Positions 5,021 through 17,537 of a DNA stretch of 37,403 nt are shown one piece after another. How positions within the stretch are numbered: the first letter of the stretch is position 1; each line of letters starts with the position of its first letter. Source of the stretch: Mycobacterium sp. (GTDB lineage: Bacteria; Actinomycetota; Actinomycetes; Mycobacteriales; Mycobacteriaceae); the NCBI GenBank assembly GCA_026393245.1, contig JAPLAO010000160.1:1-37403 (forward strand). Direction: 5' to 3'. The notes below the pieces were generated by a model. The model had not been told where the DNA came from and ran no database searches. It saw only the letters and a list, made by a program, of their open reading frames with translations. The position numbers and the translations under genes are program-made.

Positions 5021-6298
5021 CTAGTCAATGGTGGCGTAGTCCACCCAGAGGTGTTGCGGCCCGCGGAAGACCTGGTTGTGCCGGTACGGCGGCGGATCCA
5101 CCACCAGTCGCGGCGAGCGCACCCGACGCAGGAAGACCTCGAGGGCGAGGTTGACTTCCAGCCGGGCCAGCGGGCCACCCATACAGGTGTGAATGCCGCT
5201 GCCCCAACCGAAGTGCTCGTTGTCCTCGCGTAGTGGGTCGAACCGGTCCGGGTCTTCGAACCGGCGCGGGTCGCGGTTGGCCGCAGCGTAGATCAGGTGC
5301 ACCGCGGACCCGGCCGGGATCCAGGTGCCGCCGATCTCGATGTCGGCGGTAGCGCTGCGGCTGGGGAAGAACTGCACCGCCGACTGCAGCCGTTGCACCT
5401 CCTCGATGGCGCGCGGGATCAACTCCGGCCGTCCGGCGAGAAGGTCCCACGAACCGGGGTTGCGCAGCAGTGTCATCACGCAGTTGGTGATGGTGTTGAC
5501 CGTGGAGTCGTGACCGGCCACCAGCAACAGCAGTGCGTTGGCGGTGGTATCGGCCACCGACATCGGGCCATCGGGTCCGTCGTCGTGCAGCAGCGCCGAG
5601 ATCAGGCCCTCGCCGGGTTCGCGGGCATAGCGGGCCACCAGGTCGCCGAGATAGCCGGTCAGTTTCGTGGTGCTGTCGGCGGCCTTGAGCGCCAACACTT
5701 TTCCCTCGTCGGTGTCGGCTTCGGGCCCGAGGTCCGAACCCTTCATGAAGTCGAAGATCCAGCCGTGGAACGTCGCCTCGTCGGCCACCGGAACCCCGAG
5801 AATCTGACAGATCACCGCGACCGGGATCGGGTAGGAGAAGTCATCCACCACATCCAGGCGCGTGCCGCCGCGGGCTGCGATCGTGTTTAGTAGGTCGCCT
5901 GCCAGGGCCGTGATGAAGGGTTCCATCGTCGGGATCACACCGGGGGAGTGTGGCGGCAGAAAATGACGCGACACCTGCCGGCGCATGACGTCATGTTTCG
6001 GCGGGTCGGAGGTGAGGATAGTGGCGCCGGCACCGTAGGCCTTCATATGCTCGGCACCTGGCTCCGGGGCCGGTGGTGGTTGGTCCTTCTCGCCGAACAT
6101 GCCCGACGGGCTTCGGGTGATGTCGGAACTGATCCGCGGGTCATGCGCCAGCGCCAGCAGTTCCGGATAGCCGGTGACGACGTAGGTCCGATCGGAGACC
6201 TTCGCCACCGGCGTCTGGCGCAACTCGTCGAAGAACGGGTACGGGTTAGGCCGGTGAGCGAACTTCATCGCCTCGATCCAGGCGGTTGCGGCATCCAT
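5021..6298 (-). CDS. Cytochrome P450
   Basis: 425 aa; AGHDSTVNT I-helix motif, heme-binding FGWGSGIHTCMGGPLARLE. Confidence 0.96.
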   Translation of the reverse strand: MDAATAWIEAMKFAHRPNPYPFFDELRQTPVAKVSDRTYVVTGYPELLALAHDPRISSDITRSPSGMFGEKDQPPPAPEPGAEHMKAYGAGATILTSDPPKHDVMRRQVSRHFLPPHSPGVIPTMEPFITALAGDLLNTIAARGGTRLDVVDDFSYPIPVAVICQILGVPVADEATFHGWIFDFMKGSDLGPEADTDEGKVLALKAADSTTKLTGYLGDLVARYAREPGEGLISALLHDDGPDGPMSVADTTANALLLLVAGHDSTVNTITNCVMTLLRNPGSWDLLAGRPELIPRAIEEVQRLQSAVQFFPSRSATADIEIGGTWIPAGSAVHLIYAAANRDPRRFEDPDRFDPLREDNEHFGWGSGIHTCMGGPLARLEVNLALEVFLRRVRSPRLVVDPPPYRHNQVFRGPQHLWVDYATID

Positions 6299-6327
6299 GG
6301 TCTTCGTAACTCCTGCTCGTGGCTCAG

Positions 6328-7743
6328 TCAGCGGCTGCGGGGCCGGAATTCGGCGTGGCGGTCGGTGGGGTCATGCCCGGTGAGCACGACATCGGGATTG
6401 CCGGACGGTTCCCGGGGATCGGGGAATCGGGCCGGCATCACCTCGTGGTCCACCGGTTGGTCATAGCCGGGCGGCGGTGGCGGGAACGGCGCGGACCGCT
6501 CGATCAGCGAGGCGTAGTAGGGCAGCCACTTGCCGTGGTTGAACGTCACCGCGCCGACGATGCGGCCGTTCTTGCCGTACGCGGCGGCGAACCGGCGCTC
6601 CTCCGGTGAGCCCTGAGTGAAGACGATCTCGTCGCCGAACGAACACACTCCGACGCTCTTGATGTTCACCCCGAACTGGCCGGACCAGAATGACGGCAGC
6701 GGCAGGTGCGGGCGACGGCCCACCTCCAGATTGAGCATGTTGTTGGCGGCGACCTCGGCGCCGAGAACCGCGTTATCCCAATGCTCCAGCGCTAGGAACT
6801 CGTAGCCGTACAACACATGCGGAGCGCGGGCGACGTCACCGGCCACAAAGATGTGGTCGGTCACCACGCCGTTGATGTCGAAGGCGCGGCAGCCGGCGTC
6901 GCAGCCCACGCCCCACTGGCCAGCCGCCAGGCCGGCGCCGTCGAGCCATTCCACGTTGCGGATCGAGCCCAGCGACGACGCCACCACGTCGACGTCGAGC
7001 ACAGTCCCGTCCGACAGTGTCGCCGAGCGGACGTGGCCGGAGTCGTCGCCGTGCAAGGCCGTCACCGAGGTGCCGACGCGCAGGTCCACCCCGGCGTCGC
7101 GCATCATGGACGCCGCGATGTCGCTGATCACCCCGCCCAGCGCGCCCTTGAGAGGGCCGCTGCCGCGTTCGGCCACCGTCACCGGAAGGTCCAGATCGCG
7201 GCACACCGAGGCGATCTCCGAGCCGACGAACCCCGAGCCGACGATCAGCACGCGGTTGGGTTGTGCCTTGAACGCGGCGGCCAGTGCCGCGGCGTCCTCC
7301 ACGGTACGGACGGTGAACACGCCCTGCAGCGCGGCCTCTGCCGGGTTCGGCCACGGCCGCGCCCGGGTTCCGGTGGCGATCAGCAACCGGTCATAGCCCA
7401 CCTCGTCGCCATTGCCCAGTTTCACCACATGGTTGATCCGGTCGAGGCTCACCGCCGCCACGCCGAGTTTCCAGTCGGCATCCACCCGGCGCAGCCGGGG
7501 CAGTTTGGTGTGATCGGCCGGCACCCAGCCCTTGAGTACCTGCTTGGACAGCGGCGGGCGGTCATAGGGTTCGTGCGGCTCGTCGCCGATAATGGTCAGT
7601 GATCCTTCGAAACCCAGCTCCCGCAACGCGTCTGCGGCACGCAGCCCGGCCAGTGAGGCGCCCACGATGACGATGCGGCCCTCGGCGCGGAACTTCCTGA
7701 CGATCTCGTCGAACGAGTAGATCCCGCGCAGCCCGGATGTCAC
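6328..7743 (-). CDS. NAD(P)/FAD-dependent ferredoxin reductase
   Basis: IVIVGASLAGLRAADALRELGF FAD motif, second nucleotide motif VLIVGSGFVGSEIA, ATGTRARPWP; overlaps upstream ferredoxin by ATGA. Confidence 0.9.
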   Translation of the reverse strand: MTSGLRGIYSFDEIVRKFRAEGRIVIVGASLAGLRAADALRELGFEGSLTIIGDEPHEPYDRPPLSKQVLKGWVPADHTKLPRLRRVDADWKLGVAAVSLDRINHVVKLGNGDEVGYDRLLIATGTRARPWPNPAEAALQGVFTVRTVEDAAALAAAFKAQPNRVLIVGSGFVGSEIASVCRDLDLPVTVAERGSGPLKGALGGVISDIAASMMRDAGVDLRVGTSVTALHGDDSGHVRSATLSDGTVLDVDVVASSLGSIRNVEWLDGAGLAAGQWGVGCDAGCRAFDINGVVTDHIFVAGDVARAPHVLYGYEFLALEHWDNAVLGAEVAANNMLNLEVGRRPHLPLPSFWSGQFGVNIKSVGVCSFGDEIVFTQGSPEERRFAAAYGKNGRIVGAVTFNHGKWLPYYASLIERSAPFPPPPPGYDQPVDHEVMPARFPDPREPSGNPDVVLTGHDPTDRHAEFRPRSR

Positions 7744-7955
7744 TTGGTGTCCCGATCGGCCGGCGGATCAAGCTCCAGGATGATGGCCTGCACCGGGCAG
7801 GACGCCGCCGCCCGCAGCACTTGCTGACGCTGCGACTCGTCCGGGTTGGGGTCGTAGGTGACGGCTTCCTCGCCGTTGAGTTGCAGCACATCGGGCGCTA
7901 GGGGAATGCACTGCGCATACCCCTGGCACTTGTTGAGATCGATCACCAGACGCAT
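7740..7955 (-). CDS. Small [3Fe-4S]-type ferredoxin, probable P450 redox partner
   Basis: 71 aa; KCQGYAQC...SCPVQAI, i.e. CxxYxxC...CP as in P450-associated actinobacterial ferredoxins. Confidence 0.9.
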   Translation of the reverse strand: MRLVIDLNKCQGYAQCIPLAPDVLQLNGEEAVTYDPNPDESQRQQVLRAAASCPVQAIILELDPPADRDTK

Positions 7956-7996
7956 ACCTGCGAGCCTAGTGAATCCAGGCGGCCATAATCAGGCCC

Positions 7997-9127
7997 ATGG
8001 CCGACAATTCCCCCGCTGTCCATCCGTTCCGCATCGCCGTGCCCGACGGCGACCTCACCGACCTTCGTGAGCGGCTGAGCCGCACCCGGTGGCCGGAGCG
8101 CGAATGCGTGCCGGACTGGACCCAGGGCATCCCGCTGGATTACACCCGGGAGTTGGCCGCCTACTGGGCCGACGGATATGACTGGCGGGCCCGCGAGGCC
8201 GCGCTGAATCGCTTCGATCAGTTCGTTACCGACATCGACGGCATGGATATCCATTTCATTCACCAGCGCTGTGCGAACCCGGATGCGCTGCCGCTGATCA
8301 TCACCCACGGCTGGCCCGGTTCGATCGTCGAGTTCTCGAAGGTCATCGAGCCGCTGAGCCGCGACTTCCACGTGGTGTGCCCGTCACTGCCCGGCTATGG
8401 CTTCTCCGGCAAGCCCACTGCCGCTGGCTGGAACATTGAACGCATCGCGACGGCCTGGGACATCCTGATGAAGCGGCTCGGCTACGCCCGCTACGGCGCC
8501 CAGGGCGGCGACTGGGGTGCGGCTGTCACCACTCAGATCGGACGTAACGCCTCGGGCGACGGCGGCAACGGTTGCATCGCGATCCACACCAATATGCCCA
8601 TCGCCATGCCGACGCCGGAGGCGATGGCGGACCCGACGGCCGGCGAACAGGCGGCGCTTGAGGCCCTGATCCACCACCAGCGCTGGGGCATGGGGTACTC
8701 CGAGGAGCAATCCACCCGGCCGCAGACCCTGGGTTACGGGCTGGTCGATTCGCCGGTGGCGCAGATGGCGTGGATCGTCGAGAAGTTCTGGGCGTGGACC
8801 GACTGCGACGGTCACCCCGAGAACGTCCTGAGCCGAGACGAGTTGCTGGACAACGTGATGCTGTACTGGGCCACCGCGTCGGGCGCATCGTCGGCCCGGC
8901 TCTATTGGGAGAGCTTCAAGAACCTCGCCGAAGGCGGCCGGGTCGAGGTGCCGACCGGCATAGCGGCCTTCCCCAAGGAGATCCTGCGGGCGCCGCGGCG
9001 GTGGTGCGAGCCGAAGTACAACATCACGCACTGGACTGACATGCCGCGCGGCGGGCACTTCGCCGCGTTCGAACAACCGGAGTTGTTCGTCGACGACGTG
9101 CGCACCTTCTTCAGCACCATCGGCTGA
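7997..9127 (+). CDS. Epoxide hydrolase (alpha/beta hydrolase with EHN domain)
   Basis: N-terminal EHN-like segment, HGWPGS oxyanion region, GGDWGA nucleophile elbow, C-terminal GGHFAAFEQPELF catalytic His. Confidence 0.93.
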   Translation: MADNSPAVHPFRIAVPDGDLTDLRERLSRTRWPERECVPDWTQGIPLDYTRELAAYWADGYDWRAREAALNRFDQFVTDIDGMDIHFIHQRCANPDALPLIITHGWPGSIVEFSKVIEPLSRDFHVVCPSLPGYGFSGKPTAAGWNIERIATAWDILMKRLGYARYGAQGGDWGAAVTTQIGRNASGDGGNGCIAIHTNMPIAMPTPEAMADPTAGEQAALEALIHHQRWGMGYSEEQSTRPQTLGYGLVDSPVAQMAWIVEKFWAWTDCDGHPENVLSRDELLDNVMLYWATASGASSARLYWESFKNLAEGGRVEVPTGIAAFPKEILRAPRRWCEPKYNITHWTDMPRGGHFAAFEQPELFVDDVRTFFSTIG

Positions 9128-9130
9128 GGG

Positions 9131-10219
9131 TTACGGCGCCAGCGCGGCCGTCTGCAGCGTGTCACGGATCGCGCGTTCGTAGTCCTGACTGAGGCTGCGG
9201 ATGGCGTCGTCATCGACTGCCAGCGAGGCGGCGTCGTGAATGCACCGGACCATCGTCGATCGGTCGATTTTGATCTGATGTCCGGCCGTGAACAGTTTCG
9301 ACCGGTGCCGGGCCGCGCTTAGGATCGTCTCGTACGCCGGCAGTAAACACATCAGGGAGGCGATACGATAGCCCTTGGCCCGTTGTGGCACGTCCAGCAC
9401 ATACGTTGTGGCGCTTCGCAACTCGGTGAGAATATCGTCGAGCAGATCCTGAATCCAACCGACCGGCGCGCCGCCCAATTCCAACGGTGTGTGGTCGATG
9501 TCGCGCAGCCACTCATCGGGTAGGTAGCAGATCTGACGTTCGAGGTCTTCGGCGAAATCCTTGAGTACGTTGGTCTTCTGCAGTGCGCGGCCACAGGCCT
9601 GGCTTCCTGCCAGCAGGCTCGTCGCCTCGGCGCACGACAACCCGTAGTGGTCGATGACGAGCTCGGTGCCCAACCCGCCCACGGTGCCGGCCACCGAGTA
9701 GCAGTAGTCGTTATAGGCATCGACAGTCGTTAGCACCCGCACGTCACGGTGCAGCGTCACCGACGCAGCCTGCGCCGGGTCGCAGACCGCTTCCATGCCC
9801 TTGGCCATCAGCGCAATCCAGTTCCGCAGAATCGAGCGCGTGCGGGTCGGAAAGCTGGCGTAGATCAACCACAGTGGCAATCCGCCCTCGAGTGTCATCA
9901 ACGCCCGCTCGTCCGCCGATAGTCCGGGCCAGGATGCCGCTTCCCATTCGGCCAGCAGAGCGGGCGCGGATTCGGGCTCGGCTAGCAGTCCGGTGAACTC
10001 GGCGAAGCGCTGCTGCTGCCACGCCAGGGGTTGACCGCAGTCCTCGATATTGTCCAGCGCGCGACAAAGCAGATAGGCGGTCGCCATATAGTCCTGTAGT
10101 GGGTCCTCCAACCAGGGGACGACCAGTGCGAAGGACCGTGACACCCGGTCCATCGTGATTGTGAGATAGCGACGCTGCATCGGTTTGAGTGTGTAGACGT
10201 CGAAAAGCATGGAGGTCAT
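9131..10219 (-). CDS. Squalene/phytoene synthase family protein, motifs closer to squalene synthase (FDFT-like)
   Basis: CRALDNIEDC and QKTNVLKDFAEDLER Asp-rich motifs, YCYSVAGTVG. Start set at MTSMLF (10219) rather than the ORF-track start at 10267. Confidence 0.85.
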   Translation of the reverse strand: MTSMLFDVYTLKPMQRRYLTITMDRVSRSFALVVPWLEDPLQDYMATAYLLCRALDNIEDCGQPLAWQQQRFAEFTGLLAEPESAPALLAEWEAASWPGLSADERALMTLEGGLPLWLIYASFPTRTRSILRNWIALMAKGMEAVCDPAQAASVTLHRDVRVLTTVDAYNDYCYSVAGTVGGLGTELVIDHYGLSCAEATSLLAGSQACGRALQKTNVLKDFAEDLERQICYLPDEWLRDIDHTPLELGGAPVGWIQDLLDDILTELRSATTYVLDVPQRAKGYRIASLMCLLPAYETILSAARHRSKLFTAGHQIKIDRSTMVRCIHDAASLAVDDDAIRSLSQDYERAIRDTLQTAALAP

Positions 10220-10380
10220 GTCCGGTTGCCTTTCACAAAACACCGGCGTGAGCGGGTGATGGCCCACGAGTGCGATGACGTTAGCCTAGATCCCGTAGGT
10301 TCCGGGCCCACCCCGGGCCGGATTCCGGAGGCCTTCTGATTACGATCTGTTCTGCCGACTGTGCGCCCGACCCCGCAGTT

Positions 10381-11469
10381 ATGCGAAGTCCGGGCGGCTT
10401 CACCTGGTTTTACGTCGACATCGTCGACGATCAGGGCCAGGGCGCGACCCTCATCTGGTCCTGGGGGCTGCCCTTTCTGCCCGGCTACGCCGCGGCGTCG
10501 CGCGCCGGTCGGCCGCAACTGCCGGTCGAGCGTCCCAGCGTCAATCTGGTCGTCTACGGCGGCGGCCGCGAACGGTTTTATCTGCTCTCCGAATTTCCGC
10601 CCGATCAGTGCTCCTGGGGTGATGACGGAAGGTCCTGGCGGATCGGCGACTGTTCCTTCGCCTGGATCGATACCCCGGGTGCTGCTGGTGCGGCCCCGAC
10701 CCGCGAGTTGCATGCCACCCTCGACCTCGCCCTGCCCACTGGCGGCCGGGCCACCGGGCAGTTGTGGCTCTCCGGATCGCTGCGCCGCGACTCGGAGAGC
10801 GCCGATGCCGGTGTGCCCGCCGATCCCGCCTGCACGCACCGGTGGACGCCGATGATCGGCGCGAGTCGGGGCGGACTGGAATTGCAGACCCCCGGCGGAG
10901 CGCTGCGGGTCGAGGGCAGCGGTTATCACGACCGCAACAGCGGCGCGCAACCTTTGCACGGTCTGGGTGTTCAAAGTTGGTGGTGGGGCCGGCTCGCGCT
11001 GCCTGGCCGCGACCTGATCTTCTACCGCCTGCAGCCCACCGCCGACGGAGCCGCCGCGCGCGACCTGGTTGTGGAACTCGCCGCCGACGGCACCAGCCGT
11101 GTCCGCGAGGATGCCGGCCTTGCGGTCAGCGGCTTACGGCGCAGCGCGTGGGGGCTGCGCTGGCCCACCGGTGCCACCTTCGCCGATCCGGACGGCCGGC
11201 CGGTCCAGGTGGAAGTCAGTGCGCTGCTCGACAACGGGCCGTTCTATCAGCGCTATCAGCTGCGGGGTCGCTGCGGGTCGGATGAGGGCTACGGGATCGG
11301 CGAGAACCTGGTACCCGATCGGGTCGATACGCACCTGCTGCGGCCGCTGGTGCGGATGCGCGTGCATCGGGCCGCCGGCCCCAACTCGATGTGGCTGCCG
11401 CTGTTCTCCGGCGACCGCGAGGGCCGGTTGGGTAGATTGCTGCGCGGGACCGCGGGGGCGCGGGTATGA
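10381..11469 (+). CDS. Carotenoid 1,2-hydratase (CrtC)-like protein
   Basis: GGFTWFYVDIVDDQG N-terminus, GYHDRNSGAQPL and WWWGR motifs typical of CrtC. The frame is open upstream to about 10285, so the true start is uncertain. Confidence 0.82.
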   Translation: MRSPGGFTWFYVDIVDDQGQGATLIWSWGLPFLPGYAAASRAGRPQLPVERPSVNLVVYGGGRERFYLLSEFPPDQCSWGDDGRSWRIGDCSFAWIDTPGAAGAAPTRELHATLDLALPTGGRATGQLWLSGSLRRDSESADAGVPADPACTHRWTPMIGASRGGLELQTPGGALRVEGSGYHDRNSGAQPLHGLGVQSWWWGRLALPGRDLIFYRLQPTADGAAARDLVVELAADGTSRVREDAGLAVSGLRRSAWGLRWPTGATFADPDGRPVQVEVSALLDNGPFYQRYQLRGRCGSDEGYGIGENLVPDRVDTHLLRPLVRMRVHRAAGPNSMWLPLFSGDREGRLGRLLRGTAGARV

Positions 11470-12647
11470 GCTTTGGCGGACCCCGGGCGTTGGCCGCCCT
11501 GCTGGCTCTGCCCGCGCTGATGCCGCTGGGCCTGGTGGCGTTCAACGCGGTGTGCTGGACCCGTGGCCGCGCGCTGCCCGAGGCGGCCGCAGCCGCACCG
11601 GACGGCATCAGCGTGCTGATACCGGCACGTGACGAGGTGGCCAATATCGAGCGCTGCGTCCGATCCGTCGACGCCGCGCACGGCCCGATCGCCGAGATCA
11701 TCGTCTACGACGACGGCTCCACTGACGGCACCGATGCGGTGCTTACGCGCCTGCAGGCCGAACTGCCACGCCTACGGGTGGTTACCGGTGACACGCTGCC
11801 GGTTGGCTGGGTCGGCAAACCGTATGCGCTGCAACGACTTAGCGCGCTGGCCGACTGCGACGTAATTCTGAATATCGACGCCGATGTCACACTGCGCGCC
11901 GACGGTGTACTACGGATGCTGTCATTGCTCGGCACGGCCGAGCAGGTGACGGGCGGACTTGGCGCCGCGGTGGTGACGGCGGTGCCCCAGCAGCGCACCG
12001 GAAGCTTCGTCGAACGGTTGATGATGCCGCTGTTGCATCTGTCCTATGTGGCATGGCTGCCGATGCCGCTGGTCTACCGGACCCGCGACCCGCGGGTGCT
12101 GGCGGCCAACGGACAGCTACTGATGATCCGCCGTAGCGCGCTCGAGGCGGTGGGCGGCTGGTCACGGGTGCGTGCCGAACTCGTCGATGACATGGCAATG
12201 TGCCGCGCGGTCAAACAGGGCGGCGGGCGGGTCGTCTTCGCCGACGGCGACCGGATGGCCGAGTGCCGGATGTACCCGGATGCCACCGCACTCATGCGTG
12301 GTTTCGCCAAGAACTTCTACGAGGGCATCGGCGGACATCCTGTGGCGATGATCGTCGTGATGGGTTTGCACGTGGTGTTGTTCGTCGCGCCCTACGTGGC
12401 GCTGCCCCTGGCACTGGCAACCGGCGCTGGGCAGGTGGCCGCCGCCGCCGCGGTCGGCGTGGCAGCCAACGTGTGTCTGCGGCTGATCATGGCGCTGCGA
12501 TACGGCCACACTCCGCTCAGCGTGCTGCTGCATCCGGTGGCTGTACTGGCCATGATGGGCGTGCTGGGCACCAGCTATCGGTGGAGCCGCCGCGGCGACA
12601 TCCGCTGGCGCGGGCGTTCCTACCCCGCCCGCGCCGAGCGCGCGTGA
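11466..12647 (+). CDS. Family 2 glycosyltransferase, CruC/CrtQ-like (carotenoid glycosyltransferase candidate)
   Basis: VLIPARDEVANIERCVRSV, VYDDGSTDGT, GWVGKPYAL, NIDADV and C-terminal WRGRSY; overlaps crtC-like stop by ATGA. Confidence 0.87.
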   Translation: MSFGGPRALAALLALPALMPLGLVAFNAVCWTRGRALPEAAAAAPDGISVLIPARDEVANIERCVRSVDAAHGPIAEIIVYDDGSTDGTDAVLTRLQAELPRLRVVTGDTLPVGWVGKPYALQRLSALADCDVILNIDADVTLRADGVLRMLSLLGTAEQVTGGLGAAVVTAVPQQRTGSFVERLMMPLLHLSYVAWLPMPLVYRTRDPRVLAANGQLLMIRRSALEAVGGWSRVRAELVDDMAMCRAVKQGGGRVVFADGDRMAECRMYPDATALMRGFAKNFYEGIGGHPVAMIVVMGLHVVLFVAPYVALPLALATGAGQVAAAAAVGVAANVCLRLIMALRYGHTPLSVLLHPVAVLAMMGVLGTSYRWSRRGDIRWRGRSYPARAERA

Positions 12648-13444
12648 ACACCGACGGTAAGGCCTTGGCCCGGGCCGGGGACTCCCGCCGACCGGCCTTC
12701 CTTCGCGTCACCCGGCCGTATGCGCGCCGCCGCGTTGCATGCGGTCTGGACGGGCTGTGGGTGCACGGCTTACCCGACGCCCGTGCCGCCCTGGCTGATC
12801 GACCCATCATCTTCGCGGCCAACCACGTCGCGTGGTGGGATCCGTTGGTTCTGCTGGTGCTCGATGAAGCCCTCGGCGGAGTGGGCTGGGCGATGGTGGA
12901 CGTCCGGAGTATTCGCAGCCTGCCTTTCCTGGGCTGGCTCGGCGCCCTGCCACTGGACCGCAGCACCCCCGACCGCGCCCGGGAATGCCTGCAAGCCAGC
13001 GCCGACCTGTTGGATCGGCCCGGCCGCGCGCTGTGGATCTTCCCGCAGGGCCGGCAGCGTCCGGCCCACCTGCGTCCGCTGGACTTCAAGGGGGGTCTGG
13101 GCATCCTGCATGAACACAATCCGGTTGATCTGGTCGCGGTGAGCCTCGACTACGTGTTCTTGGAACGGGACCGCCCGGCCGCGCTGGTGCGCTTCTCGAC
13201 GCCGATCTCCGGCGCGGTCGCCGGTGGGCCGATGCCCGCGGTGGAGAGCGCAGTACTGGATGGGCTGGATGTTATCGACAGCGCCGTGACGGCGGCGACT
13301 GACGGACACCGGGCCCGCACGCACCCGGGCGACCCGCTGCCCGGCTTCAGCGCACTGGTGCCGCCACGGGGACGGGCGGCCCGGGATAGCCTCGGCTCCC
13401 GGATGCTGCGGGCCGCCGGACGCGGGGATCCGCATGTCAGTTGA
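12644..13444 (+). CDS. PlsC-like 1-acyl-glycerol-phosphate acyltransferase family protein (CruD-like candidate)
   Basis: NHVAWWDP (HX4D) and FPQGRQRP motifs. GTG start at 12644 overlaps the GT stop by GTGA; the upstream part of ORF 12200..13444 lies in the wrong frame inside the GT gene. Confidence 0.85.
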   Translation: MNTDGKALARAGDSRRPAFLRVTRPYARRRVACGLDGLWVHGLPDARAALADRPIIFAANHVAWWDPLVLLVLDEALGGVGWAMVDVRSIRSLPFLGWLGALPLDRSTPDRARECLQASADLLDRPGRALWIFPQGRQRPAHLRPLDFKGGLGILHEHNPVDLVAVSLDYVFLERDRPAALVRFSTPISGAVAGGPMPAVESAVLDGLDVIDSAVTAATDGHRARTHPGDPLPGFSALVPPRGRAARDSLGSRMLRAAGRGDPHVS

Positions 13445-14793
13445 GCGTGGCGCCGATGTGCTGGTGATCGGCGCCGGTATCGGCGGACTGGCAGCCGCAC
13501 TTGCACTGGCTGCCCGCGGAGTGGGCGTGCGGGTACTCGAGGCCGGGTCGCGGCCGGGTGGCAAGGCCGGCACCGTCGAGTTGGACGGGGTGCGGGTCGA
13601 GACCGGCCCCAGCGTGCTGACCCTGCCCGAGGTGTTCGGTGGACTGTTCGCCCGCGCCGGTGTCCGCCTCGACGACGTGGTGGGCCTGCGTCGGCTGGAC
13701 CCGGGTTTCCGCTACCACTACGCCGACGGCGCTGTGCTGGACGTCGCCCACGATCCGCACCAGACGCTCGCCAACGTCCGATCGACACTGGGGCCGGTGG
13801 CGGAGCGTGAACTCGGGTCGTTCCTGGGCTACAGCCGCTCTATCTGGGCGGCGGCTGCTCCGCACTTCGTCGAGGGTCCGGCCCCGACATGGGCGGCAAT
13901 GGTCGGCCTCGCGCTGCGTCACCCGCGCGCGGTGGCGGCCATTGATCCGATGCGCAGCATGGCCGCCGGTATCGACCGCCACGTTCGGGAGCCGCATCTG
14001 CGGATGCTGCTGCGCCGTTACGCGACCTATAACGGCAGCGATCCCCGCAGCGCCCCGGCCACCCTGAATTGTATTGCGCACATTGAACTTTCCCTCGGTG
14101 GCTATGGCGTGCAGGGCGGCATCAGTGCGCTGGTGTCGGCGATGGCCGCTACCATCGAGGCCCGCGGCGGTGTTATCGAGTGTGGGGTTCCGGTCGAGCG
14201 GGTGGTGGTGCGCGACGGTGTAGCGGTCGGTGTCGAGTTGGCTGGCCGATCGCCGACCGCATGAGGTGCTGTTCCCGGCCGACTACGACGCGGAATTCGC
14301 CGATATCTTTGACCGTGACCGCCCGCCGGTGGCGCCAACGGTTTACCTGTGCGCGCAGGAACGCTGCCACGGACTGACCGGGTGGGGTGACGCCGAACCG
14401 GTATTCGCGATGGCCAACGCCCCGGCCGAACCCGAGCACGGATCGCGGGCGTCGGAGGTCTGGACCACGCTGGAGGCGGCGATGGAACGTCGGATTCGGG
14501 AGGCGGGACGCTGGAGCGACGGTGACTCGCTGGTCTGGCGGCGCACCCCGGCGGATCTGGCCGCCGAATTCCCCGGCAGCCGCGGCGCCATCTACGGCGC
14601 GGCCAGCAATGACCGGTTCGCCGCGTTCAAGCGCCCACCCAATCGGGTGCGGGGTATGCGTGGGCTGTACCTCGCCTCCGGCAGCGCCCACCCCGGCGGC
14701 GGCGTGCCGATGGCCGGACTCTCCGGCCTCGCCGCCGCTGACTGCCTCGGCGAAGACCTTGGTCTTTCGACGCTGTCACCGTCGCCCGGTTAG
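13434..14793 (+). pseudogene. CrtD/CrtI-type phytoene desaturase-like gene, broken by apparent internal deletion plus frameshift near 14245
   Basis: N-terminal ORF 13434..14264 (VIGAGIGGLAAALALAARGVGVRVLEAGSRPGGKAG...RYATYNGSDPRSAPATL) and C-terminal ORF 14230..14793 (PHEVLFPADYDAEFADIF...PTVYLCAQER...GLYLASGSAHPGGGVPMAGLSG) are both recognisable, but in different frames and missing the intervening conserved segment. Confidence 0.85.
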
Positions 14794-14804
14794 CATCGTT
14801 GCCC

Positions 14805-15482
14805 ATGCGGCTGCGGGTGGCACTGATCGCCTCGACGGCCCTTGCGCTCGCCGGTTGTGCACACACCGTGTCCGGTGCCGCGCGGTGGGACCGCGCAATG
14901 TCGATGACCGGACTGCGGGTGACCGACGCCGATCAGGTTCTGCTCGGCCCGGCAGAGATCGGCGACGTCGTCGGGGTCAGGCTGCAGGTCGACGCTGACC
15001 GGTCCCGTCCCATCGTCGGGGCATCGGCGGTGCCGGCCTGCTCGGCTCTGGACGCGGTCGGAATGTCGGCGTTCATGGGTGACTCCTGGTCGAAGTTCCA
15101 TGTGCTGTTGTTCACCGACGGCGACGCCCACGAACACGTGTTGGCCGAGGCCGTTGCGGTATACCCGGACAGCGGCGCGGCTGCTGCCGCATTCATCATG
15201 GCAACCCGCGCTGCGAAGGCGTGCGACGGTCAGCGCGCCCTGGGCACCGGTGGTGATGCCGCCTGGAGCTTCAGCGTTCCGGCGATCGACGCCGACACCG
15301 TACGCTGGCGCAAACAGCAGATCGGCATCCCGTTGACCTGGGTGTGCCATGGCGAGGCACGGTTGCGCAATAACGCTGTCCTGCAAGCGATGTCATGCCG
15401 GGCTGACGACGACGGCCGGGTCACCGTTACCGCGATCACGGACCGGATGTCGGCAACTGTGTGGGAGTTGTCGGGCCGTTGA
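14805..15482 (+). CDS. Lipoprotein with PknH-like extracellular sensor domain
   Basis: Signal peptide plus lipobox LALAGC; Cys-containing PknH_C-type pattern (VPACSAL...AKACDG...TWVCHGEARLRNN...MSCRADD). Confidence 0.8.
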   Translation: MRLRVALIASTALALAGCAHTVSGAARWDRAMSMTGLRVTDADQVLLGPAEIGDVVGVRLQVDADRSRPIVGASAVPACSALDAVGMSAFMGDSWSKFHVLLFTDGDAHEHVLAEAVAVYPDSGAAAAAFIMATRAAKACDGQRALGTGGDAAWSFSVPAIDADTVRWRKQQIGIPLTWVCHGEARLRNNAVLQAMSCRADDDGRVTVTAITDRMSATVWELSGR

Positions 15483-15714
15483 GGCCTGCGGCGAATCGTC
15501 GCACCGATTCCGCGGCTGCTGCAGCGGCGTTGTCGTGTCCCGGTTGTGCACGCGAGGTGACGGTGCCGCTTCGCGGATCCAGCACGACCTCCGCGAGTGG
15601 GTCGCCGGTGGTGGGTTCACAGACCGCCCACGCGTAGCAGGCGTCAGATGCCCACTCCTCGGGGCGCAGCGGCAGCAGATACCACGCACCGGCGTTGATC
15701 TCGACCGGTTCCAC
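15436..15714 (-). CDS. Conserved hypothetical small protein downstream of accA3
   Basis: 92 aa ORF starting 17 nt after the accA3 stop on the same strand; protein-like composition; family not recognised. Confidence 0.6.
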   Translation of the reverse strand: MEPVEINAGAWYLLPLRPEEWASDACYAWAVCEPTTGDPLAEVVLDPRSGTVTSRAQPGHDNAAAAAAESVRRFAAGLNGPTTPTQLPTSGP

Positions 15715-15731
15715 CTTCGTGTGGTGGCCGG

Positions 15732-17537
<1,806 letters not shown>

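Follow-up and report, generated by a model that had tools for sequence, protein, structure and literature searches.

In green sulfur bacteria, CruC glycosylates and CruD acylates a hydroxylated carotenoid, giving OH-chlorobactene glucoside ester. Mycobacteria are known to make phleixanthophyll-type tertiary glucosides; the one paper found here to mention phleixanthophyll concerns Nocardia. Salinixanthin, found in Salinibacter and Rhodothermus, is a monocyclic carotenoid glucoside fatty-acid ester. The myxobacton ester of M. xanthus is made with CrtYc/CrtYd, CrtC and CrtD, the glycosyltransferase (orf6) and the acyltransferase (orf9) being assigned by proposal only (PMC8156234). All of the M. 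xanthus carotenoid genes except crtIb lie in one locus together with carA/carH. M. smegmatis has the isorenieratene cluster crtIBYcYdUV, and the paper that describes it reports no module made of crtC, a glycosyltransferase, an acyltransferase and crtD (PMC4694148).

The stretch analyzed here (the window, 37,403 nt) is the whole of contig C12 in a mycobacterial draft assembly of 3.35 Mb (364 contigs, 97.8% complete). It contains the following features.

5021-6298, minus strand: P450 gene
6328-7743, minus strand: FAD ferredoxin reductase gene
7740-7955, minus strand: 4Fe-4S ferredoxin gene
7997-9127, plus strand: epoxide hydrolase gene
9131-10267, minus strand: squalene-synthase-like gene of the SQS_PSY family (PF00494, E=7.4e-32; TIGR01559, 65.6 bits)
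10381 (ATG; likely start CTG 10336) to 11469, plus strand: crtC-like gene, carotenoid 1,2-hydratase (NCBIfam CrtC, E=6.6e-19)
11466-12647, plus strand: GT2 glycosyltransferase, putative carotenoid O-glycosyltransferase (Glycos_transf_2, E=1.7e-17)
12644-13444, plus strand: PlsC-like acyltransferase, putatively acylating the sugar (PF01553, E=1.7e-9)
13434-14264, plus strand: crtD 5' fragment, FAD-binding half of a 1-hydroxycarotenoid 3,4-desaturase (CrtD model, 216.9 bits)
14230-14793, plus strand: crtD 3' fragment, in another frame (CrtD model, 129.3 bits)
14245/14246, plus strand: junction of a 152-bp deletion that shifts the crtD frame (nucleotide alignment with nine intact relatives)
14799-15482, plus strand: PknH_C-type lipoprotein gene, right border of the insertion (PF14032, E=8.5e-19)

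Profile matches recovered the genes that an earlier note on this DNA had listed, i.e. the P450 trio, the epoxide hydrolase and the SQS_PSY, crtC-like, GT2 and PlsC-like genes. That note had also described a divergent overlapping run. The overlaps are real (4, 4 and 11 bp), but crtC, GT2, plsC and crtD are co-directional on one strand throughout, the squalene-synthase-like gene being the only member divergent from them, and crtD, which had been counted as one gene, is split over two frames by the 152-bp deletion. An in-frame CTG at 10336 aligns with the GTG or TTG crtC starts of relatives, and crtC translation probably begins there, upstream of the ATG at 10381.

The CrtC-like protein scored 68.3 bits against the NCBIfam CrtC model, below the equivalog cut-off of 400, while profile-profile comparison with purple-bacterial CrtC gave a probability of 98.9 (E=1.4e-17). 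Its residues H153, W155, Y182 and D184 (numbered from the ATG) align with the essential His, Trp, Tyr and Asp of Rubrivivax CrtC, which are His239, Trp241, Tyr266 and Asp268 as identified by mutation in R. gelatinosus (PMC4717167). The H-x-W and Y-x-D motifs are invariant among 15 mycobacterial sequences. As these residues are kept and the equivalog cut-off is missed, we class the putative hydratase as CrtC-like. The models nearest to the GT2 protein were HpnB (134.8 of 379 bits) and CruG (119.1 of 600 bits), both matches lying below the curated cut-off, as did those of the crtD fragments to the CrtD model. The GT2 motifs DAD and VDDM are invariant in 19 mycobacterial and myxobacterial homologues, and the PlsC-like motifs HVxxWD (H-x4-D) and PQGRQR in 13. 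No match to solved structures was found for CrtC, GT2 or PlsC, and the substrates of the predicted glycosyltransferase and acyltransferase are assigned by gene context. Pairwise comparisons of the four module genes gave dN of about 0.13-0.21 and dS of about 0.7-0.9; crtC, GT2 and plsC still have open reading frames under constraint.

Of 298 genomes of the genus, 15 yielded a CrtC, all of them small drafts; the 394 genomes sampled from the rest of the class yielded none. The record titles of the carriers include lakes and other waters, and many are named as lake MAGs. The order crtC-GT2-plsC-crtD is conserved in all nine genus relatives with spanning contigs (64-82% identity) and also in further named MAGs. 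The same four genes occur in the same order in five Myxococcota-type contigs (L083, L091, L098, L101 and L103), meaning contigs labelled Myxococcota, deltaproteobacteria or uncultured bacteria. In four of these five, crtB, crtI or crtE lies no more than 5 kb from the cassette, and CarH-like MerR+B12 proteins are encoded in L083, L101 and L103. Homologues of the module in Myxococcota-type MAGs are 35-70% identical to it, and the closest non-mycobacterial sequence found was the cassette of L083 (GC 0.76; 65-70%). On this deltaproteobacterial MAG contig, the segment 6579-14666 holds a CarH-like MerR+B12 protein gene, crtB, crtE and crtC-GT2-plsC-crtD. Four records (L068, L071, L075 and L098) are titled Bifidobacterium breve or Klebsiella pneumoniae; since they carry mycobacterial or myxobacterial cassettes, these titles look misassigned.

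In a tree of CrtD, with sequences from purple bacteria and CrtI as outgroups, the sequences grouped with purple CrtD and not with CrtI (100/99), and the mycobacterial ones were nested in the Myxococcota group with L083 as sister (92/90), a support that is moderate. All carriers of the module are fragmentary draft genomes. The CrtC tree did not resolve the nesting. From the CrtD nesting, the linkage to carotenoid genes on the donor side and the absence from other sampled Actinomycetes, we infer the direction of transfer: in the simplest reading, the module was apparently acquired horizontally from a myxobacterium-like donor.

The carotenoid core of this genome lies on another contig (C323). It consists of crtE-crtI-crtB-crtYc-crtYd, followed by a methyltransferase gene and by the start of an FAD enzyme gene cut by the contig end. 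The FAD enzyme is complete in relatives and is taken to be CrtU from its position and from the M. smegmatis cluster (PMC4694148), which is of the same type as the core on C323 and in relatives. The crtYc and crtYd products in L017 have a lycopene cyclase domain above cut-off. Of the 14 other crtC-positive genomes, 12 have a crtI match (69-93%), and CrtYc was detected in only 8 of all 15. In the core clusters of G726, G803 and G642 (L151, L154 and L158), crtYc and crtYd seem to be missing or reduced, the methyltransferase gene following crtB almost directly, which suggests acyclic carotenoids there.

We consider it likely that 10336-14793 is an operon-like psi-end module of Myxococcota origin, taken up by a clade of Mycobacterium with small genomes, mostly from lakes, and that it modifies the native C40 carotenoid to a glycoside ester. 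The predicted sequence of steps, with its substrates, sugar and acyl group, is as follows. The native crtE-crtI-crtB-crtYc-crtYd(-crtU) genes would supply a C40 carotenoid with an open (psi) end. CrtC would add water at C-1',2', giving a tertiary alcohol, and CrtD, where intact, would introduce a double bond at 3',4'. A sugar would then be transferred to the hydroxyl by the GT2 protein, and a fatty acyl group to the sugar by the PlsC-like protein; the product, a carotenoid glycoside ester resembling myxobacton ester in type, would be anchored in the membrane. With crtD inactivated, the expected product in this strain lacks the extra double bond; it would be a 1'-hydroxy-gamma-carotene glycoside ester or, with CrtU, a hydroxychlorobactene-like one. 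The CrtC residues, the GT2 and PlsC motifs, the conserved gene order, the Myxococcota clusters and the C40 core thus lend support to the earlier idea of a hydrate-glycosylate-acylate pathway.

The gene set of myxobacton-ester synthesis is present here, with crtC, crtD, glycosyltransferase and acyltransferase genes together and CrtYc/CrtYd in the core. The carB locus of M. xanthus has the same psi-end enzyme types and a heterodimeric lycopene cyclase, orf6 and orf9 being likened to our genes by type. It differs in gene order, and the mycobacterial locus is a tail module alone, with the native core elsewhere, no ketolase seen next to the module and a broken crtD. The predicted chemistry (tertiary hydroxyl, glycosylation, acylation) is also that of CruC and CruD of green sulfur bacteria, a likeness by chemistry that CrtU could extend by making the ring end aromatic; the nearest relatives found for the module are, however, Myxococcota genes.

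The earlier note had drawn a wider pathway, with its own P450 system and with the P450 and epoxide hydrolase possibly acting on the same carotenoid or terpenoid backbone. Physical adjacency speaks for such a role, in this stretch only. The order lhr-P450-FdR-Fd-EH is found in the mycobacteria G752 and G884, which lack crtC, with the PknH_C lipoprotein gene further along, and on cassette-free contigs in the crtC-positive genomes G636, G788, G803 and G801. In G803 about 50 bp separate the epoxide hydrolase gene from the PknH_C gene. A block made up of the P450 trio, the epoxide hydrolase, the PknH_C lipoprotein and accA3 is thus found elsewhere without the cassette. P450 orthologues (56-80%), accompanied by reductase and ferredoxin, occur in 82 other genomes of the genus among the matches listed, only nine of which are crtC-positive. 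The P450, reductase, ferredoxin and epoxide hydrolase genes are therefore ancestral mycobacterial neighbours outside the pathway. Synteny speaks strongly against their membership, and we see almost no chance that their products act on the carotenoid. The note's own caveat that the P450 half could be an unrelated neighbour was thereby confirmed. The conservation of neighbourhood that it had proposed to check holds for the crtC-GT-AT-crtD half and fails for the P450/epoxide hydrolase half, which is not linked to crtC in relatives, so that the crtC-GT2-plsC-crtD run stands and the unit around it was drawn too wide. Among the loci fetched, the squalene-synthase-like gene and the cassette (9131-14793) lie between the epoxide hydrolase and PknH_C genes in this genome only. 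Where relatives have long contigs, the cassette mostly lies near argG/argH-, mpg- and tyrS-like genes, as read from their translations. In some relatives sigF adjoins accA3; here it was not found at 15482-15732.

A second neighbour, the squalene-synthase-like gene, raises the possibility that the substrate of the module is a C30 backbone derived from squalene. This gene adjoins crtC here, and close homologues are found in seven of 296 genomes of the genus, all crtC-positive. Yet in none of the six other carriers were they found next to the cassette, the remaining crtC-positive genomes yielded no homologue, and six MAGs with a Myxococcota-type cassette gave weak partial matches only. The Myxococcota cassette is accompanied by the C40 genes crtE, crtB or crtI, the present genome has a C40 core, and no squalene cyclase was found in it. 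The protein itself reached 65.6 of the 286.75 bits set as the cut-off of TIGR01559 and showed weak structural matches to squalene and dehydrosqualene synthases. A C30 substrate is thus very unlikely; shared ancestry may explain the overlap between the carriers of the two genes, and we leave the squalene-synthase-like gene out of the proposed pathway.

The state of crtD bears on whether the C40 module is functional in this strain. The 5' piece covers positions 1-262 of the 485 of the CrtD profile and the 3' piece, in another frame, 321-483, so that crtD looks broken, without a single complete reading frame. Alignment showed a single clean, out-of-frame gap of 152 columns at 14245/14246, nine of nine relatives being intact. 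The genome is a draft in 364 contigs, and an assembly artefact might be suspected. This is improbable given that the loss is clean, that no long repeat that could mislead a short-read assembler was seen by eye at the junction and that crtD has no other large gap relative to its homologues. The module may also be decaying in this genome, the loss of crtD being the first step and no glycoside ester being made. Consistent with this would be the absence from the core cluster of some relatives of crtYc/Yd, as well as the failure to find sigF, on which pigmentation depends in M. smegmatis (PMC4694148). The earlier remark that sigF is missing was right for this stretch, and searches of the remaining contigs of the 97.8%-complete assembly, and of G788, G726, G655 and G737, also gave no orthologue. 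However, crtC, GT2 and plsC are open and under constraint, and CrtC, the glycosyltransferase and the acyltransferase would make a glycoside ester with no need of CrtD. The loss also appears to be recent, since the crtD pieces are still about 80% identical to an intact copy, with dN near 0.13 and dS of 0.75-0.92. A dead or dying module is therefore unlikely, though less so than an artefact, and we retain the reading of a C40 module that makes a glycoside ester without the 3',4' double bond.

A microbial rhodopsin of the xanthorhodopsin type, with the glycine and tyrosine of the carotenoid site, is encoded in 10 of the 15 crtC-positive genomes, this one included, and in one (G884) of the two crtC-negative genomes tested. 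The rhodopsin of the present genome (L205/L211, G000:C91:3637-4281, minus strand) is of the xanthorhodopsin type and is shortened by the contig end. It reads WGLLSTIPF and TWGVYPIAY, and has the equivalents of Gly156 and Tyr207 of xanthorhodopsin, the glycine and tyrosine that serve as criteria for a carotenoid site (PMC12308411). Alignment of the relative L203 with Gloeobacter rhodopsin, Kin4B8 and xanthorhodopsin (3ddl) showed a D-T-E motif and the same two equivalents. Because a xanthorhodopsin-type protein with the carotenoid-site glycine is encoded here, an antenna role of the pigment is a testable, speculative option. The predicted product resembles salinixanthin, but the latter has a 4-keto group needed for binding, and no ketolase was seen next to this module. 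The antennae studied so far have a 4-keto or 3-hydroxy ring, which counts against an easy conclusion, as does the presence of the rhodopsin in the crtC-negative G884. Also against it, by eye, no retinal-forming gene was recognized beside the rhodopsin in the crtC-positive loci whose flanks were read, whereas a Blh-like protein is encoded next to it in G884. We consider it unlikely that the acylated glycosyl carotenoid serves, at least in part, as a salinixanthin-like antenna for the proton-pump-like rhodopsin, which would make planktonic mycobacteria carotenoid-assisted photoheterotrophs.

These results illustrate how gene proximity in a single genome may point to a spurious pathway, the P450 half dropping out once neighbours are compared. 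They extend the myxobacton-ester type of carotenoid module to mycobacteria, apparently through inter-phylum transfer, with L083 as a plausible donor-type contig. The module offers a compact set of three or four genes for testing the myxobacterial glycosyltransferase and acyltransferase assignments, and the present strain supplies a variant that naturally lacks an intact crtD. Should the pigment pair with the rhodopsin, this would explain how uncultured lake mycobacteria use light.
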